Part shown: in pieces, positions 14,167 through 28,322 of the stretch
How the letters are laid out: every line of letters begins with the position of its first letter
Position numbering within the stretch: the first letter of the stretch is position 1
IMG/VR virus record: IMGVR_UViG_3300021963_000411
Location: 1 to 32,996 of that record
Source: a virus
Direction: 5' to 3' (one strand)
DNA length: 32,996 nt
The notes under the pieces: generated by a model
Seen by the model: the letters and a program-made list of their open reading frames with translations, nothing else
What the model was told of the DNA's origin: nothing
Databases searched by the model: none
Made by a program: the position numbers and the translations under genes

Positions 14167-14553
14167 ATGGATAACTACACTCTTAAATTAGCAAAATTAT
14201 TACAAGGCGCATCACCAAAACAAGGTGGTTTAAGCGTAGGTGATTATCCTAATCCTTATGGGCTAAGAGCATATCAAAATCCTAATGGTACTTATGGCGG
14301 TCAAATGATGCCTAAATATACAGGATGGATGGGAGTGCAAACTAATCCAAAAGGTCAAAGCGTAACAGAATTATCTATTGGAGATAGCATTGGTGATTTT
14401 CCATCTATTGTACCTACATTAAACAAAAAAGAACTTACTGAGATTGTGCAACATGAAAATATAATGCCGTCTGCTAGATCAAAAGCAGAACAATGGGCTA
14501 TACAAAGACGATCACAAGGATTAAATCCTTTTAAAGATATTTGGGATAAATAA
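14167..14553 (+). CDS. Small tail/virion module protein, 128 aa
   Basis: A 128-residue protein. Its central part (GWMGVQTNPKGQSVTELSIG, then GDFPSIVPTLNKKELTEIVQ) matches a module frequently found in phage structural proteins: a short strand pair with a sequence like 'TE-SIG--IG---IPTLVPTLT--E' followed by a helix with KAEQWAIQRRSQGLNPF. Here the module stands nearly alone with a short N-terminal extension. It is encoded between connector and tail hub and overlaps the next gene's start (TAATG). Role in the virion unknown. Confidence 0.6.
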   Translation: MDNYTLKLAKLLQGASPKQGGLSVGDYPNPYGLRAYQNPNGTYGGQMMPKYTGWMGVQTNPKGQSVTELSIGDSIGDFPSIVPTLNKKELTEIVQHENIMPSARSKAEQWAIQRRSQGLNPFKDIWDK

Positions 14554-16079
14554 TGTTTCCAGTAAAACAAAAATCAGCAGGAAGCGTATCGTTACCAGCA
14601 CCAGTAGGCGGATGGAACGCAAGAGATAGTTTAGGTGACATGCCTGTAACAGATGCAGTTTATCTTACTAACTGGTTTCCTGCGACAACAGAATTACAAT
14701 TAAGAAGTGGTTATACAAAGTGGGCTACAGGATTGCCTGCTGAAGTAGATACACTTATGAACTATGAAAGTGGCACTACAGGTAAGCTATTAGCTATATC
14801 TAATGGCGGTGTTTATGATGTTACATCACAAGGTGCAGTAGGTTCTGCATTATTAACAGGGTTAGGTAATTCACGTTGGCAATATTGTAATATTACAACT
14901 GCTGGCGGATCATTTTTAATGATGGCTAATGGTGTTTCTACACCTTATGTTTATAATGGCACTACATGGACAAGCATTACAGGCGCATCTACACCAGCAA
15001 TTACAGGCGTTACTACTACTACATTAAATAACCCAATCGTATTTAAAAGTAGAGTATTTTTTACGCAAACAGATACATTAAAAGTATGGTATTTACCTGT
15101 GTTATCTATAGGTGGAGCAGCTAAATCATTAGATTTAAGCTCATTTGCTTATAAAGGCGGTAAGATTATTCAGCATGCAACATGGACAATAGATGCTGGT
15201 TACGGTGTTGATGACTACTATGTAGCTTATACATCTAAAGGCCAAGTAATTGTCTATAAAGGATCTGATCCTGATACAGATTTTGCATTAGCAGGCGTAT
15301 GGGATTTAGGAACTCCTGTAGGCACTCGTTGTTTATACAAATATGGTGGTGATTTACTTGTTTTAGGTAAAGATGGTATTACTCCATTAGCTTCAGAATT
15401 ACAATCATCAAGACTTGATCCAAGAGTAGCTATTACAGACAAAATTCAATGGGCTGTATCAGAAGCTATTACACAATATGGCGATCAATTTGGTTGGCAA
15501 ATGTTGTTTTATCCACAAGAAAACCAATTATGGTTAAATGTACCTAATCCAATACAAATTAACCAATTTGCTATGAATAGCATTACAACTAATTGGTGTA
15601 ATTACACAGGTTGGAACGCATATTGCTGGGAATTGTTTAACGATCAACCTTATTTTGGTGGATCTAATTATGTAGGTCGTGCATGGTACACAAACGCTGA
15701 TAACGGTGCTAATATTACAGGAGTAGCATTACAAGCGTTCTCTGCTTTTGGTAGTCCAGGTGAACTTAAACGCTTCACAATGGCTAAACCAATATTTAGA
15801 ACATCTGGTAATCCTTCTATCTACACAAATATTAATGTAGATTTTAATACAAGTTTACCTACTACAATCCTAAACTATACACCTTCAGCTATTGGCTATT
15901 GGGATACTGGAATATGGGATTCTGCATTATGGGGTGGTGGTTTATCAGTCTTGCAACAATGGCAAGGTGTTAATGGCGTAGGTTATTATGGTGCGCCAAT
16001 CGTATCCACTACATCTCAAGGCATTGACGTAAGATGGGTTTCAACAGATATAGTAATTGAAAAGGGTGCAGTACTATAA
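14553..16079 (+). CDS. Tail hub protein, P22 gp10-like beta-propeller-type
   Basis: A 508-residue, Trp/Tyr/Gly-rich beta protein. It opens with a proline-containing segment (SLPAPVGGWNARDSLGDMP, then YLTNWFPATTELQLRSGY) that is characteristic of packaged-DNA stabilisation or tail hub proteins in short-tailed phages. Repeated strand blocks follow (LLAISNGGVYDVTSQGAVG, DLLVLGKDGITPL, QMLFYPQENQLWLNVP), consistent with a propeller. It should cap the connector and seal DNA in the head. Its last codons overlap the start of the GNAT-like gene. Confidence 0.7.
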   Translation: MFPVKQKSAGSVSLPAPVGGWNARDSLGDMPVTDAVYLTNWFPATTELQLRSGYTKWATGLPAEVDTLMNYESGTTGKLLAISNGGVYDVTSQGAVGSALLTGLGNSRWQYCNITTAGGSFLMMANGVSTPYVYNGTTWTSITGASTPAITGVTTTTLNNPIVFKSRVFFTQTDTLKVWYLPVLSIGGAAKSLDLSSFAYKGGKIIQHATWTIDAGYGVDDYYVAYTSKGQVIVYKGSDPDTDFALAGVWDLGTPVGTRCLYKYGGDLLVLGKDGITPLASELQSSRLDPRVAITDKIQWAVSEAITQYGDQFGWQMLFYPQENQLWLNVPNPIQINQFAMNSITTNWCNYTGWNAYCWELFNDQPYFGGSNYVGRAWYTNADNGANITGVALQAFSAFGSPGELKRFTMAKPIFRTSGNPSIYTNINVDFNTSLPTTILNYTPSAIGYWDTGIWDSALWGGGLSVLQQWQGVNGVGYYGAPIVSTTSQGIDVRWVSTDIVIEKGAVL

Positions 16080-16501
16080 TAGTTCAAGGACAAGAAGTAG
16101 GAGAATGGGTTTGTCAGAAAGCTGGCGGATCATGGACTCCTATTTGCCAAGCAATAGGTCAAGTTTATAAAGGTCAGTTAATTGCTGGTCTTATGTATGA
16201 TGGTTATACAGGATCATGTATAGCAAGTCATTCAAGATGTGATGATCCACGTCATGTATCTAGGGAATTTTATTTTGCAATATTTAATTACCCTTTCAAT
16301 GTATTAAAAGTAAAACAGTTAAAAGGATTAGTCTCTACAGCTAATCTAAAAGCTCAAAAAGTAAATGTTCACTTAGGATTTAAGCAAGAAGCATTGCTTA
16401 AAGATTATTTCCCAGATGGTGATGGCATTGTTTATACAATGTCACCTGAAGATTGTCGTTGGTTAAAACTTAAAGATAGATATATAAAGGAAAAAGTATG
16501 A
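16076..16501 (+). CDS. GNAT-like N-acetyltransferase with ATA start
   Basis: A 141-residue protein resembling GNAT-fold proteins that occur between tail genes of many short-tailed phages. N-terminal strand and helix: VQGQEVGEWVCQKAGGSWTP, then QAIGQVYKGQLIAGLMYDGY. The C-terminal half has the GNAT-type segment VKQLKGLVSTANLKAQKVNV-HLGF-QEALLKDYF and a last strand GIVYTMSPEDCRW. The first ATG (16193) would delete about 39 residues, including core strands. Upstream the frame runs to a stop at 16058-16060 with no ATG, GTG or TTG. ATA at 16076 overlaps the preceding TAA stop (ATAA) with AAGGG at 16062-16066 nine nt upstream, the geometry of an ATGA coupling. Start therefore inferred as ATA. The substrate is unknown. 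Confidence 0.65.
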   Translation: MIVQGQEVGEWVCQKAGGSWTPICQAIGQVYKGQLIAGLMYDGYTGSCIASHSRCDDPRHVSREFYFAIFNYPFNVLKVKQLKGLVSTANLKAQKVNVHLGFKQEALLKDYFPDGDGIVYTMSPEDCRWLKLKDRYIKEKV

Positions 16502-17589
16502 AATTGTTAGATTTTAAATGGTTATTACCAGCATTAGGTGATTACTTTACATTCTATGGCGGTGGTAAAGGTTCTGCTCCACCACCACCAGATTACACAG
16601 GTGCTGCACAAGCAACTGCTGCTGGTAACTTAGAAGCTGCTAGAGCAACTGCTGCTGCAAACCGTACAAATCAAATTACACCATACGGTAATTTAATTTA
16701 TACAGCTAATCCTGGTACTGATCCATACGGTAATACTTTATATACTGCTACACAAACATTAGCACCTGCTCAACAAGAGCTATTAAATAAAACCAATGTA
16801 TTAAATACAGGTTTAATGGATACAGCTAATAGAGGTTTAAATTATGCTAATACTGTATTATCACAACCTGGTGTAGATACATCTCAATTACCTACTACAG
16901 GAATCAATCCTGGTCAATCATATCAAGATGCTATTATGAGCAGACTTGGCCCACAAATTGATCGTGAAAATGCTGCATTAGATCAACAATTAGCTAATAG
17001 AGGTATTGCTGCAGGTACAGAAGCATACAAACAAGCTAAAATGTTACAAACTCAAAAACAAAATGATTTACTTAATAGTGCAGTTGTTCAAGGTATGGGA
17101 ATGGGACTTAATGCTAATCAACAAGCATTTCAACAACAAGCATACAATCAAATGCAACCTATTAACGTCATTAATGCACTACGCACAGGTTCTCAAGTTC
17201 AAAATCCTAACTTTGTAAATACACCTAATCAGGCTTACACAGCAGGCCCAGATTTACTTGGTGCTGCTAATGCAAGTTATCAAAATCAACTTAATGCTTA
17301 CAATGCTCAACAAGCTGCAAGCGGTGGATTTATGGGTGGTTTAATGAATCTTGGTGGTGCATTAGGAAGTGCATATATTAAATCTGATAAACGCCTTAAA
17401 AAATATATTAAGAAAATTGGTACATTATCTAATGGTCTTAATGTTTATAAATATCATTACAAAAAAGGCTTTGGCTTACCAGAAGGTCAGCAAATTGGTG
17501 TTATGGCTCAAGAAGTTGAAAAAGTTATACCAGAAGCAGTTATTACAATGGCTGATGGATATAAAGCTGTTAATTACGCATTAATCTAG
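16498..17589 (+). CDS. Virion protein with C-terminal peptidase S74 chaperone domain
   Basis: A 363-residue protein. The N-terminus (MKLLDFKWLLPALGDYFTFY) precedes a GGGKGSAPPPPDYTGAAQAT motif common in podovirus virion proteins. The middle is a Gln/Asn/Ala-rich helical region. At residues 296-363 is a short S74 intramolecular chaperone domain: SDKRLKKYI with Ser296 and Lys301 at the positions of the self-cleavage Ser/Lys pair, then YHYKKG and IGVMAQEVEKVIPEAV. These domains help trimeric proteins fold and then cleave themselves off. The domain ends right after VNYALI, slightly short. It overlaps the GNAT-like gene (ATGA). Confidence 0.75.
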   Translation: MKLLDFKWLLPALGDYFTFYGGGKGSAPPPPDYTGAAQATAAGNLEAARATAAANRTNQITPYGNLIYTANPGTDPYGNTLYTATQTLAPAQQELLNKTNVLNTGLMDTANRGLNYANTVLSQPGVDTSQLPTTGINPGQSYQDAIMSRLGPQIDRENAALDQQLANRGIAAGTEAYKQAKMLQTQKQNDLLNSAVVQGMGMGLNANQQAFQQQAYNQMQPINVINALRTGSQVQNPNFVNTPNQAYTAGPDLLGAANASYQNQLNAYNAQQAASGGFMGGLMNLGGALGSAYIKSDKRLKKYIKKIGTLSNGLNVYKYHYKKGFGLPEGQQIGVMAQEVEKVIPEAVITMADGYKAVNYALI

Positions 17590-26424: not shown

Positions 26425-27159
26425 TTGAAGATACTACTTTTAGATATAGAAACAAGTCCTAATACAGCGTATGTTTGGGGATTATGGAACGAAAATATAC
26501 CATTAGCAAGATTAATAGATTCATCTCAAGTTTTATGTTGGGCTGCAAAATGGCATGGTGAATCTAAAATTATGTTTGATTCAATTCATAAATCTAAACA
26601 TAAAAATATGATTAAAGGTATTCATTCCCTTATGGATGAAGCCGATGCAATCGTACATTATAATGGCTCAAGATTTGATATTCCAACTATTAATAAAGAA
26701 TTTTTATTGCATAAATTTTCTCCTCCAGCACCATATAAACAAATTGATTTATTACAAGTAGCTAGAAAACAATTTAGATTTACTTCTAATAAATTAGATT
26801 ATGTAGCTCAAAAATTAGGTTTTGGAAATAAAAATGAAACTAATTTTCAGCTATGGGTTGATTGTATGAATAAAAATTCAGCAGCATGGAAAATAATGGA
26901 AGCATATAACAAACAAGATGTATTATTGTTAGAAAAAGTATATGACCATTTAAAAGGATGGATTAAATCACATCCTAATCATAATGTATATTCTGCAAAT
27001 ATTTGTTGTCCAAATTGCGGATCACGCAAATTAAACAAACGTGGTACAGTAAGATCAAGAGTATCAGTATTCCAACGCTATCAATGTCAATCTTGCGGTG
27101 CGTGGGCAAGATCAGCTACTAAAGAAAAAATTAGCACAGAATCACTTATTAATATTTAA
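26425..27159 (+). CDS. RNase H-like 3'-5' exonuclease (YprB-like) with zinc ribbon
   Basis: A 244-residue nuclease of the DnaQ/RNase H-like superfamily. The first motif LLDIETS (Asp7, Glu9) is at the very N-terminus; ADAIVHYNGSRFDIPTINKE gives the second acidic position, and AYNKQDVLLLEKVYDHL the last Asp. The C-terminus has a zinc ribbon with CPNC (195-198) and CQSC (221-224). This resembles YprB-type predicted exonucleases in phages. Start is TTG 26425, with AGGAGAG at 26414-26420 close upstream. Likely DNA repair or degradation; it sits at the end of the late operon. Confidence 0.75.
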   Translation: MKILLLDIETSPNTAYVWGLWNENIPLARLIDSSQVLCWAAKWHGESKIMFDSIHKSKHKNMIKGIHSLMDEADAIVHYNGSRFDIPTINKEFLLHKFSPPAPYKQIDLLQVARKQFRFTSNKLDYVAQKLGFGNKNETNFQLWVDCMNKNSAAWKIMEAYNKQDVLLLEKVYDHLKGWIKSHPNHNVYSANICCPNCGSRKLNKRGTVRSRVSVFQRYQCQSCGAWARSATKEKISTESLINI

Positions 27160-27482: not shown

Positions 27483-28322
27483 CTAATCTCCACAAAAGCA
27501 AGGGATCGCTTCTTCAGTTTTATCAAACATATCAGATTGATTTAAAGCGTAGTCATACATTTGCTGGTAGCTTGGGCGATCTTTTCTAAACCTTCCACCG
27601 TCACCAAAAGTTTTGTTAGAAGTCTGGACAGACTTCTCAGCATTTATCCACCATATAGCCCTAGATGGTTTTTCTTGTATTAAGCTCATAATTTGATGTG
27701 CTGGTTTTAAAAAGCATAAATCACAATTACCATGCATAGTTACACCATTATTATTTGGTAATTTAAGGTCAAAAGATTGTTCTTGCCAAAATTTACCTAC
27801 ATCTTGTTTTGTTACTCCTGCTGTAACTAATGGAGTTCTTTCACGATCTATTTTAGCAGCTCTACGCATTTCATCTGCTCTAATTCCTACCCAATCCATA
27901 TTTTCATTATGTTTCCATCCTAAAGACTTTAAATACTTATCAATAGTGCGAATCTTTAATGTTACGGTGCATATTCTAGCTACTGGATTAGGTAAATAAC
28001 CTGTGGATTCATGAATCATAGCCATAAAAGGCTCACCATTACGACTTGCAGTATTAAAATCTACTTTTTTAAATCTTAATTTTGAATCTTCATTCCATTG
28101 ATATTCAAGCCAATGAATAGGGACATTCCAATTTACTTCACAATCTCTTACAAATTCAAGCGTTTCTTCTTCTTCTTTGCCTGTATTGGCAAAACATACA
28201 ATAGCGTCATTAGGAAGTTTACCATTATTAGATTGCAATATACGCCAAAGCATATATGCAGAAGTACGACCACCGCTAAAACTAATAACGGTGGGTTCTA
28301 TAATCTTAAATGGATCAGTCAT
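27483..28322 (-). CDS. PP-loop / PAPS-reductase-like protein
   Basis: A 279-residue protein with a PP-loop VISFSGGRTSAYM (SGGRTS, residues 16-21) followed by DAIVCFANTGKEEEETLEFV, as in PAPS reductase/ATP-pyrophosphatase proteins. A Cys in ARICTVTLKIRTIDKYL lies where these families have a CxxxLK motif. Further cysteines occur in GNCDLCFLKP and PCFCGD, possible iron-sulphur or zinc ligands. The classical CysH ending with ECG-H is absent, so true sulphate assimilation is not assured. Phage members are often annotated PAPS reductase and may act in DNA or RNA modification. It is the last gene of the early leftward operon and overlaps DUF3310 by 8 nt. Confidence 0.75.
   Translation of the reverse strand: MTDPFKIIEPTVISFSGGRTSAYMLWRILQSNNGKLPNDAIVCFANTGKEEEETLEFVRDCEVNWNVPIHWLEYQWNEDSKLRFKKVDFNTASRNGEPFMAMIHESTGYLPNPVARICTVTLKIRTIDKYLKSLGWKHNENMDWVGIRADEMRRAAKIDRERTPLVTAGVTKQDVGKFWQEQSFDLKLPNNNGVTMHGNCDLCFLKPAHQIMSLIQEKPSRAIWWINAEKSVQTSNKTFGDGGRFRKDRPSYQQMYDYALNQSDMFDKTEEAIPCFCGD

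Follow-up and report, generated by a model that had tools for sequence, protein, structure and literature searches.

In a podovirus-like phage, the gene for a GNAT-fold acyltransferase-like protein most probably starts (we put the probability at about 0.76) at an AUA codon (16076-16078, plus strand), a very uncommon start, that overlaps the stop codon of the preceding tail hub gene. Judged from sequence comparison, initiation at this codon would be weak, coupled to hub termination and inherited throughout a clade of uncultured phages, and probably keeps expression of the protein low. The start position, its conservation, its homology to canonical starts, the purifying selection on the N-terminal codons and the fold rest on sequence and on a structure model, from which we infer initiation, coupling, low expression and selection for it.

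Genomic context

The window, that is, the whole stretch of DNA analyzed, is a 32,996-base IMG/VR virus record of this phage, with the gene order terminase, portal, major head, hub, GNAT, S74-domain and tail genes. The hub gene (14553-16079, plus strand) encodes a podovirus tail hub or stabilization-type protein of 508 amino acids (phrog_5107) and ends in GTA CTA TAA; the GNAT gene (16076-16501, plus strand; stop TGA at 16499-16501) encodes 141 amino acids counted from the AUA; and the downstream gene (16498-17589, plus strand), comprising a Peptidase_S74 domain, overlaps the GNAT stop through a regular ATGA. At this second junction, a regular ATG overlaps the end of the GNAT gene both in the window and in a relative (L021).

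The GNAT protein of the window matches phrog_4470 in a profile search (E 2.6e-31); of 55 family members, up to 20 are recognized by Pfam GNAT models, the window protein not being among them at E 0.01. Both the profile match and the predicted fold place it among the GNAT fold acyltransferases of phrog_4470, so that the product appears to be a GNAT-fold acyltransferase-like protein with a predicted enzyme role. A search of genome contigs returned as sole matches five distant Burkholderiaceae loci (33-36% identity), which do not identify the host. A phage tRNA was considered as an explanation for the AUA and dropped, the tRNA search of the window having returned none.

Elsewhere in the window, a phosphoadenosine phosphosulfate reductase-like gene (phrog_424; 27483-28322, minus strand) represents an auxiliary metabolic gene, and a DNA polymerase exonuclease-like gene (26425-27159) has a TTG start; the latter is without the N-terminal part of its family, because its profile match begins only at position 65 of 321.

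The hub-GNAT junction

The sequence and the ORF lists agree that no stop interrupts the GNAT frame between 16061, just past an in-frame TGA (16058-16060, plus strand), and its own stop at 16499-16501, and that no ATG, GTG or TTG occurs in it between that TGA and 16193. The first canonical codon, an ATG at 16193-16195 (plus strand), corresponds to codon 40 and is not conserved; a start there would leave 102 amino acids and remove 39 residues, as the initial annotation had noted. The candidate AUA overlaps the hub stop TAA (16077-16079, plus strand), and a weak Shine-Dalgarno (SD)-like AAGGG lies within the hub gene nine nucleotides 5' of it (16062-16066, plus strand; -4.5 kcal/mol with the anti-SD), positions that were all given correctly in the first reading of this DNA.

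The arrangement is singular on its strand. A uniqueness scan compared the window ORFs of at least 70 amino acids, on both strands and with shadows included, with four near-full-length relatives. Sixty-two of these ORFs match at least one of the four, and in nine the conserved part extends at least 12 codons upstream of the first canonical codon. Of the nine, the GNAT frame alone is on the plus strand; the other eight are minus-strand ORFs that all lie opposite plus-strand ORFs.

Conservation of the AUA codon among relatives

A first IMG/VR scan returned 48 contigs with a relative, 47 of them spanning the junction and the 48th (L046) stopping short; ATAA stands at the junction in 45 of the 47, and TTG occupies the identical codon in two (L043 and L048). 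Further scans brought the clade, defined at a threshold of at least 65% identity, to 169 loci, many of which are re-fetched copies of the same contigs, and these collapse to 41 distinct 120-nt junction haplotypes. In the alignment of relatives, proposed earlier as the means to tell ATG from ATA at the start, ATA is found exactly at the 16076 site in 39 of the 41 haplotypes and TTG in two, where the hub stop is displaced upstream. The alignment shows that ATA is kept in the clade. Of the alternatives offered by the initial annotation, AUA initiation with translational coupling is supported, and a fresh start-codon lesion or a base error is ruled out by the presence of ATA in 39 of 41 haplotypes drawn from many metagenomes.

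The two TTG loci read CTT TAA GAA TTG ATA GTT at the junction; the hub ends earlier, and the GNAT gene sits in the hub's own frame, with its TTG start precisely at the position of the ATA of the others. Their lineage is nested within the clade; the hub stop and the GNAT start have there been remade as TAA GAA TTG, and the gene has thereby reverted naturally to a canonical start.

The 39 ATA haplotypes have no conserved substitute start: counting from the ATA, the first in-frame ATG, GTG or TTG ranges from codon 8 to codon 122. It falls at codon 8 in four haplotypes, at codon 12 in two, at codon 23 in two, at codons 39-40 in 17 and at codons 96-122 in 14. In these last 14 it stands at codon 96 or beyond, too late for any downstream start to yield the protein. 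Homologues beginning at the residue of ATG 16193, named at the outset as an observation that would count against a longer protein, were not found, the Met codon being missing in many relatives. The junction displays the features looked for in a conserved AUA start, comprising (i) the lack of a canonical start for the full-length protein, (ii) homologues with canonical codons at the same site, and (iii) retention across the lineage.

The hub side of the overlap was also compared. In each of the 48 full-length hubs followed by an ATA start, the final Leu codon has A as its third base, and CTT is found in just two rows, those with the TTG start; none of the other 17 amino-acid-invariant hub Leu columns has a fixed third base, compared with 37 of all 240 amino-acid-invariant hub columns, the last Leu column included. 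For the invariant A that distinguishes TAA from TGA, the hub Lys, Glu and Gln columns serve as comparison: 9 of 24 have A as third base in every row, and the invariance was dropped as proof of selection. Selection against a return to ATGA is undemonstrated on account of these equally invariant columns; that the weak start is favoured by selection is what we infer.

Selection and predicted fold of the N-terminal part

The pN/pS ratio, computed over 43 of 44 rows after removal of one that contained an N, comes to 0.30 in codons 2-39, compared with 0.29 in codons 40-128; purifying selection acts on the first part just as it does on the remainder of the frame. A structure model built on an alignment of 55 family members has a mean pLDDT of 94.3, with strand 1 at residues 2-4, and the predicted fold from residue 2 is a complete GNAT. 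A Foldseek search of the PDB returned 383 matches with E ≤ 0.001, headed by GNAT acetyltransferases (2zxv_A, E 2.5e-08). Translation from ATG 16193 would truncate strand 3 in the model; the loss of core strands anticipated for it is borne out in the predicted fold, which would be deprived of strands 1 and 2, helix 1 and most of strand 3. With the codon missing in many relatives and the fold cut, a start at ATG 16193 was rejected.

These data bear directly on the view that the window gene is damaged, or its base wrong, and that just the 102-residue product from ATG 16193 is made, or nothing. That ATG is indeed the earliest canonical codon; yet the ATA is common to 39 of 41 haplotypes, ATG 16193 is unconserved, codons 2-39 are under purifying selection, and the shortened fold would want two strands, a helix and most of a third strand. 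The view is already refuted as far as sequence can refute it, and we regard it as scarcely credible.

Ancestry of the start codon

In the closest outgroup (L104, 61% identity), the homologous codon is a GTG that belongs to a GTGA overlap, and the SD is stronger (-9.8 kcal/mol). Two further outgroup loci show GTGA (L049) and ATGA (L052), and more distant relatives display GTGA, ATGA or TTGA overlaps, with TAATG in one (L105); the hub frames of unannotated outgroup loci were read by eye. A tree of the proteins (59 rows) places the 41 sequences with ATA, together with one nested TTG sequence, in a single group (support 92/73) surrounded by GTG, ATG and TTG starts; the deeper branches of this tree are long and poorly resolved. 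The proposed descent of the junction from an overlap of canonical start and TGA stop is correct in general type, as the GTGA, ATGA and TTGA overlaps of the outgroups indicate; the single step from ATGA to ATAA that went with it is undemonstrated, because the nearest outgroup has GTGA, two changes away from ATAA.

In one outgroup record (L049, MW202489.1; 2468-2518), the annotated GNAT start is an ATG at 2516, 16 codons inside the gene, and a GTG at 2468 overlapping the hub TGA is a better fit to the family.

Frameshifting as a possible alternative route

The rivals to AUA initiation are all weaker, and the chief one is a programmed -1 frameshift near the hub stop, at a possible slippery heptamer A_AAG_GGT (16061-16067, plus strand), which would yield a hub-GNAT fusion and turn the ATA into an internal Ile codon. 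The GNAT frame does lie at -1 to the hub and is open from just past the TGA at 16058-16060; moreover, A_AA.G_GG.U and A_AA.G_GG.C are reported among the heptamers giving >0.10% frameshifting in E. coli with no stimulators (PMC4066793), the first being the one found here. The slippery Lys codon is AAG in 32 of 50 hubs, compared with 116 of 822 hub Lys codons overall, a preference that a better SD explains equally well, and the heptamer is missing in the other 18 of 50 hubs, which have A_AAA_GG. RNAalifold gives no consensus structure for 21 relatives (consensus energy 0), and the strong hairpin of the window is confined to close relatives among those folded. In the two TTG loci, the GNAT gene follows the stop in the hub's frame, so that a -1 shift cannot yield the GNAT protein there; ordinary start codons occupy this site in the outgroups, and the five residues of the linker show non-conservative changes. 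A programmed -1 cassette would comprise the heptamer in all members, a conserved stimulator and -1 reach in all, and none of the three was found. Programmed frameshifting as the route to the GNAT protein is consequently judged unlikely, and low-level frameshifting may occur alongside AUA initiation.

Two local features deserve description in their own right. The AAG preference at the hub Lys codon 16062-16064 may reflect either the SD or the slippery run. The RNA hairpin (z -3.4) occupies 16095-16145 in the window, 19-69 nt past the AUA; it is shared with two loci (L001 and L006) and was not seen in most other relatives folded; in that subgroup it could stall or position ribosomes.

Possible initiation one codon downstream and a possible promoter at the junction

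Initiation at the second codon (16079-16081) in place of 16076 would use a codon that is likewise AUN, one codon on and served by the same SD-like site upstream. Among 44 rows this second codon is ATA in 34, ATC in 4 and ATT in 6, whereas the first is always ATA (the rows having been selected for ATA), and the TTG of the two rebuilt junctions and the GTG of the closest outgroup align with the first codon; a start at the second codon is thus quite improbable. Just as improbable is that the ATA is kept for transcription, as part of a promoter -10 box TATAAT (16075-16080). The hexamer is perfect in the window and in 44 of 44 aligned rows (junction columns read by eye), but a scan for sigma-70-like sites found none at 16075-16080, the 34 TATAAT copies in the window are below the number in shuffles, the hexamer is missing where TTG stands, and under this reading the GNAT gene would remain without a start codon. 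TATAAT could still account for part of the ATA conservation.

Proposed mechanism of AUA initiation

Initiation at the AUA, the reading preferred here, would proceed from ribosomes that end the hub at the UAA (16077-16079) and are already in place near the AUA. With assistance from the weak AAGG(G) SD-like site nine nucleotides upstream, a minority of them would begin again at the AUA in the overlap, where the initiator tRNA would pair with a mismatch at the third codon base. The SD-like site scores between -3.4 and -4.5 kcal/mol in the window and the 12 ATA relatives computed, and 18 of the 32 other listed starts of the window (ATG 16193 and the second ATA excluded) score better than -4.5. A strong extended SD, as described for the Staphylococcus cases, is missing here and is not required of AUA starts generally. 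The overlap of stop and start codons that defines the termination-reinitiation class is found, and the nearby terminating ribosomes, on which initiation would depend, may offset both defects, the AUA and the weak SD.

In evolutionary terms, the ancestral junction would have been an ordinary NTGA overlap (GTGA or ATGA), and the shift to ATAA would have preserved the hub stop while weakening the downstream start. The clade has kept ATAA, which is most simply understood if little enzyme relative to the hub suffices or is preferred, and coupled AUA initiation would predict a low GNAT-to-hub ratio. A more elaborate version, possible yet doubtful, holds that AUA and UAA together form a selected set-point, in which the GNAT protein would come from few reinitiating ribosomes, would be sensitive to IF3 or to the growth state of the host, and would perhaps be joined by a rarer hub-GNAT fusion from -1 frameshifting at AAAAGGG. 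If true, two low-yield routes would give free and virion-anchored forms of one enzyme.

Comparison with known systems

A 2017 study by Hecht et al. reportedly examined all 64 codons as sites of initiation. Records of AUA starts kept throughout a lineage are rare, and the bacterial cases found in print are those of Staphylococcus, with ccpN also in Bacillus. No phage AUA-start case was found in open-licence full texts, a coverage that most subscription journals fall outside. The junction matters in practice, since a gene caller restricted to ATG, GTG and TTG would begin the gene too late (at codon 40 in the window) or overlook it, as in the 14 of 39 haplotypes that offer no canonical codon before codon 96. 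It also provides a natural comparison set, with AUA, TTG and GTG at one homologous codon, for relating start codon and stop overlap to expression in a phage operon.

AUA starts have been reported for S. aureus infC, ccpN and citZ, the last being lineage-specific (PMC13009471). According to the same report, (i) the non-canonical starts of Staphylococcus that were tested give about 10% of AUG output in reporters, ccpN reaching up to 30% in rich medium; (ii) they carry extended SDs; (iii) initiation at such AUA starts is low and modulated by IF3; and (iv) the AUA of ccpN is retained in both S. aureus and B. subtilis (PMC13009471). Like infC and ccpN, the junction described here would have a near-cognate AUA starting an intact gene; unlike those cases as reported (PMC13009471), it concerns a phage gene whose AUA overlaps the upstream stop (AUAA), whose SD-like site is weak and whose start is predicted from sequence. 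It resembles the ATGA termination-reinitiation overlaps (Huber et al. 2019, PMC6728339) in the four-nucleotide overlap of stop and start, with translational coupling expected, and departs from them in having AUAA in place of AUGA, that is, a non-canonical start and a UAA stop (PMC6728339).

Among phages, the podovirus phrog_4470 acyl-CoA N-acyltransferases belong to the same family and share the predicted GNAT fold, and ctMlz233 and BUCT555 show the same hub-then-GNAT gene order as the window; unlike the window, relatives of the ctMlz233/BUCT555 type start with GTG (L049, read by eye) or ATG. Conserved AUA starts are known from Staphylococcus; what appears new here, as read from sequence, is a clade-wide phage AUA start set within a stop overlap in a structural-gene operon.
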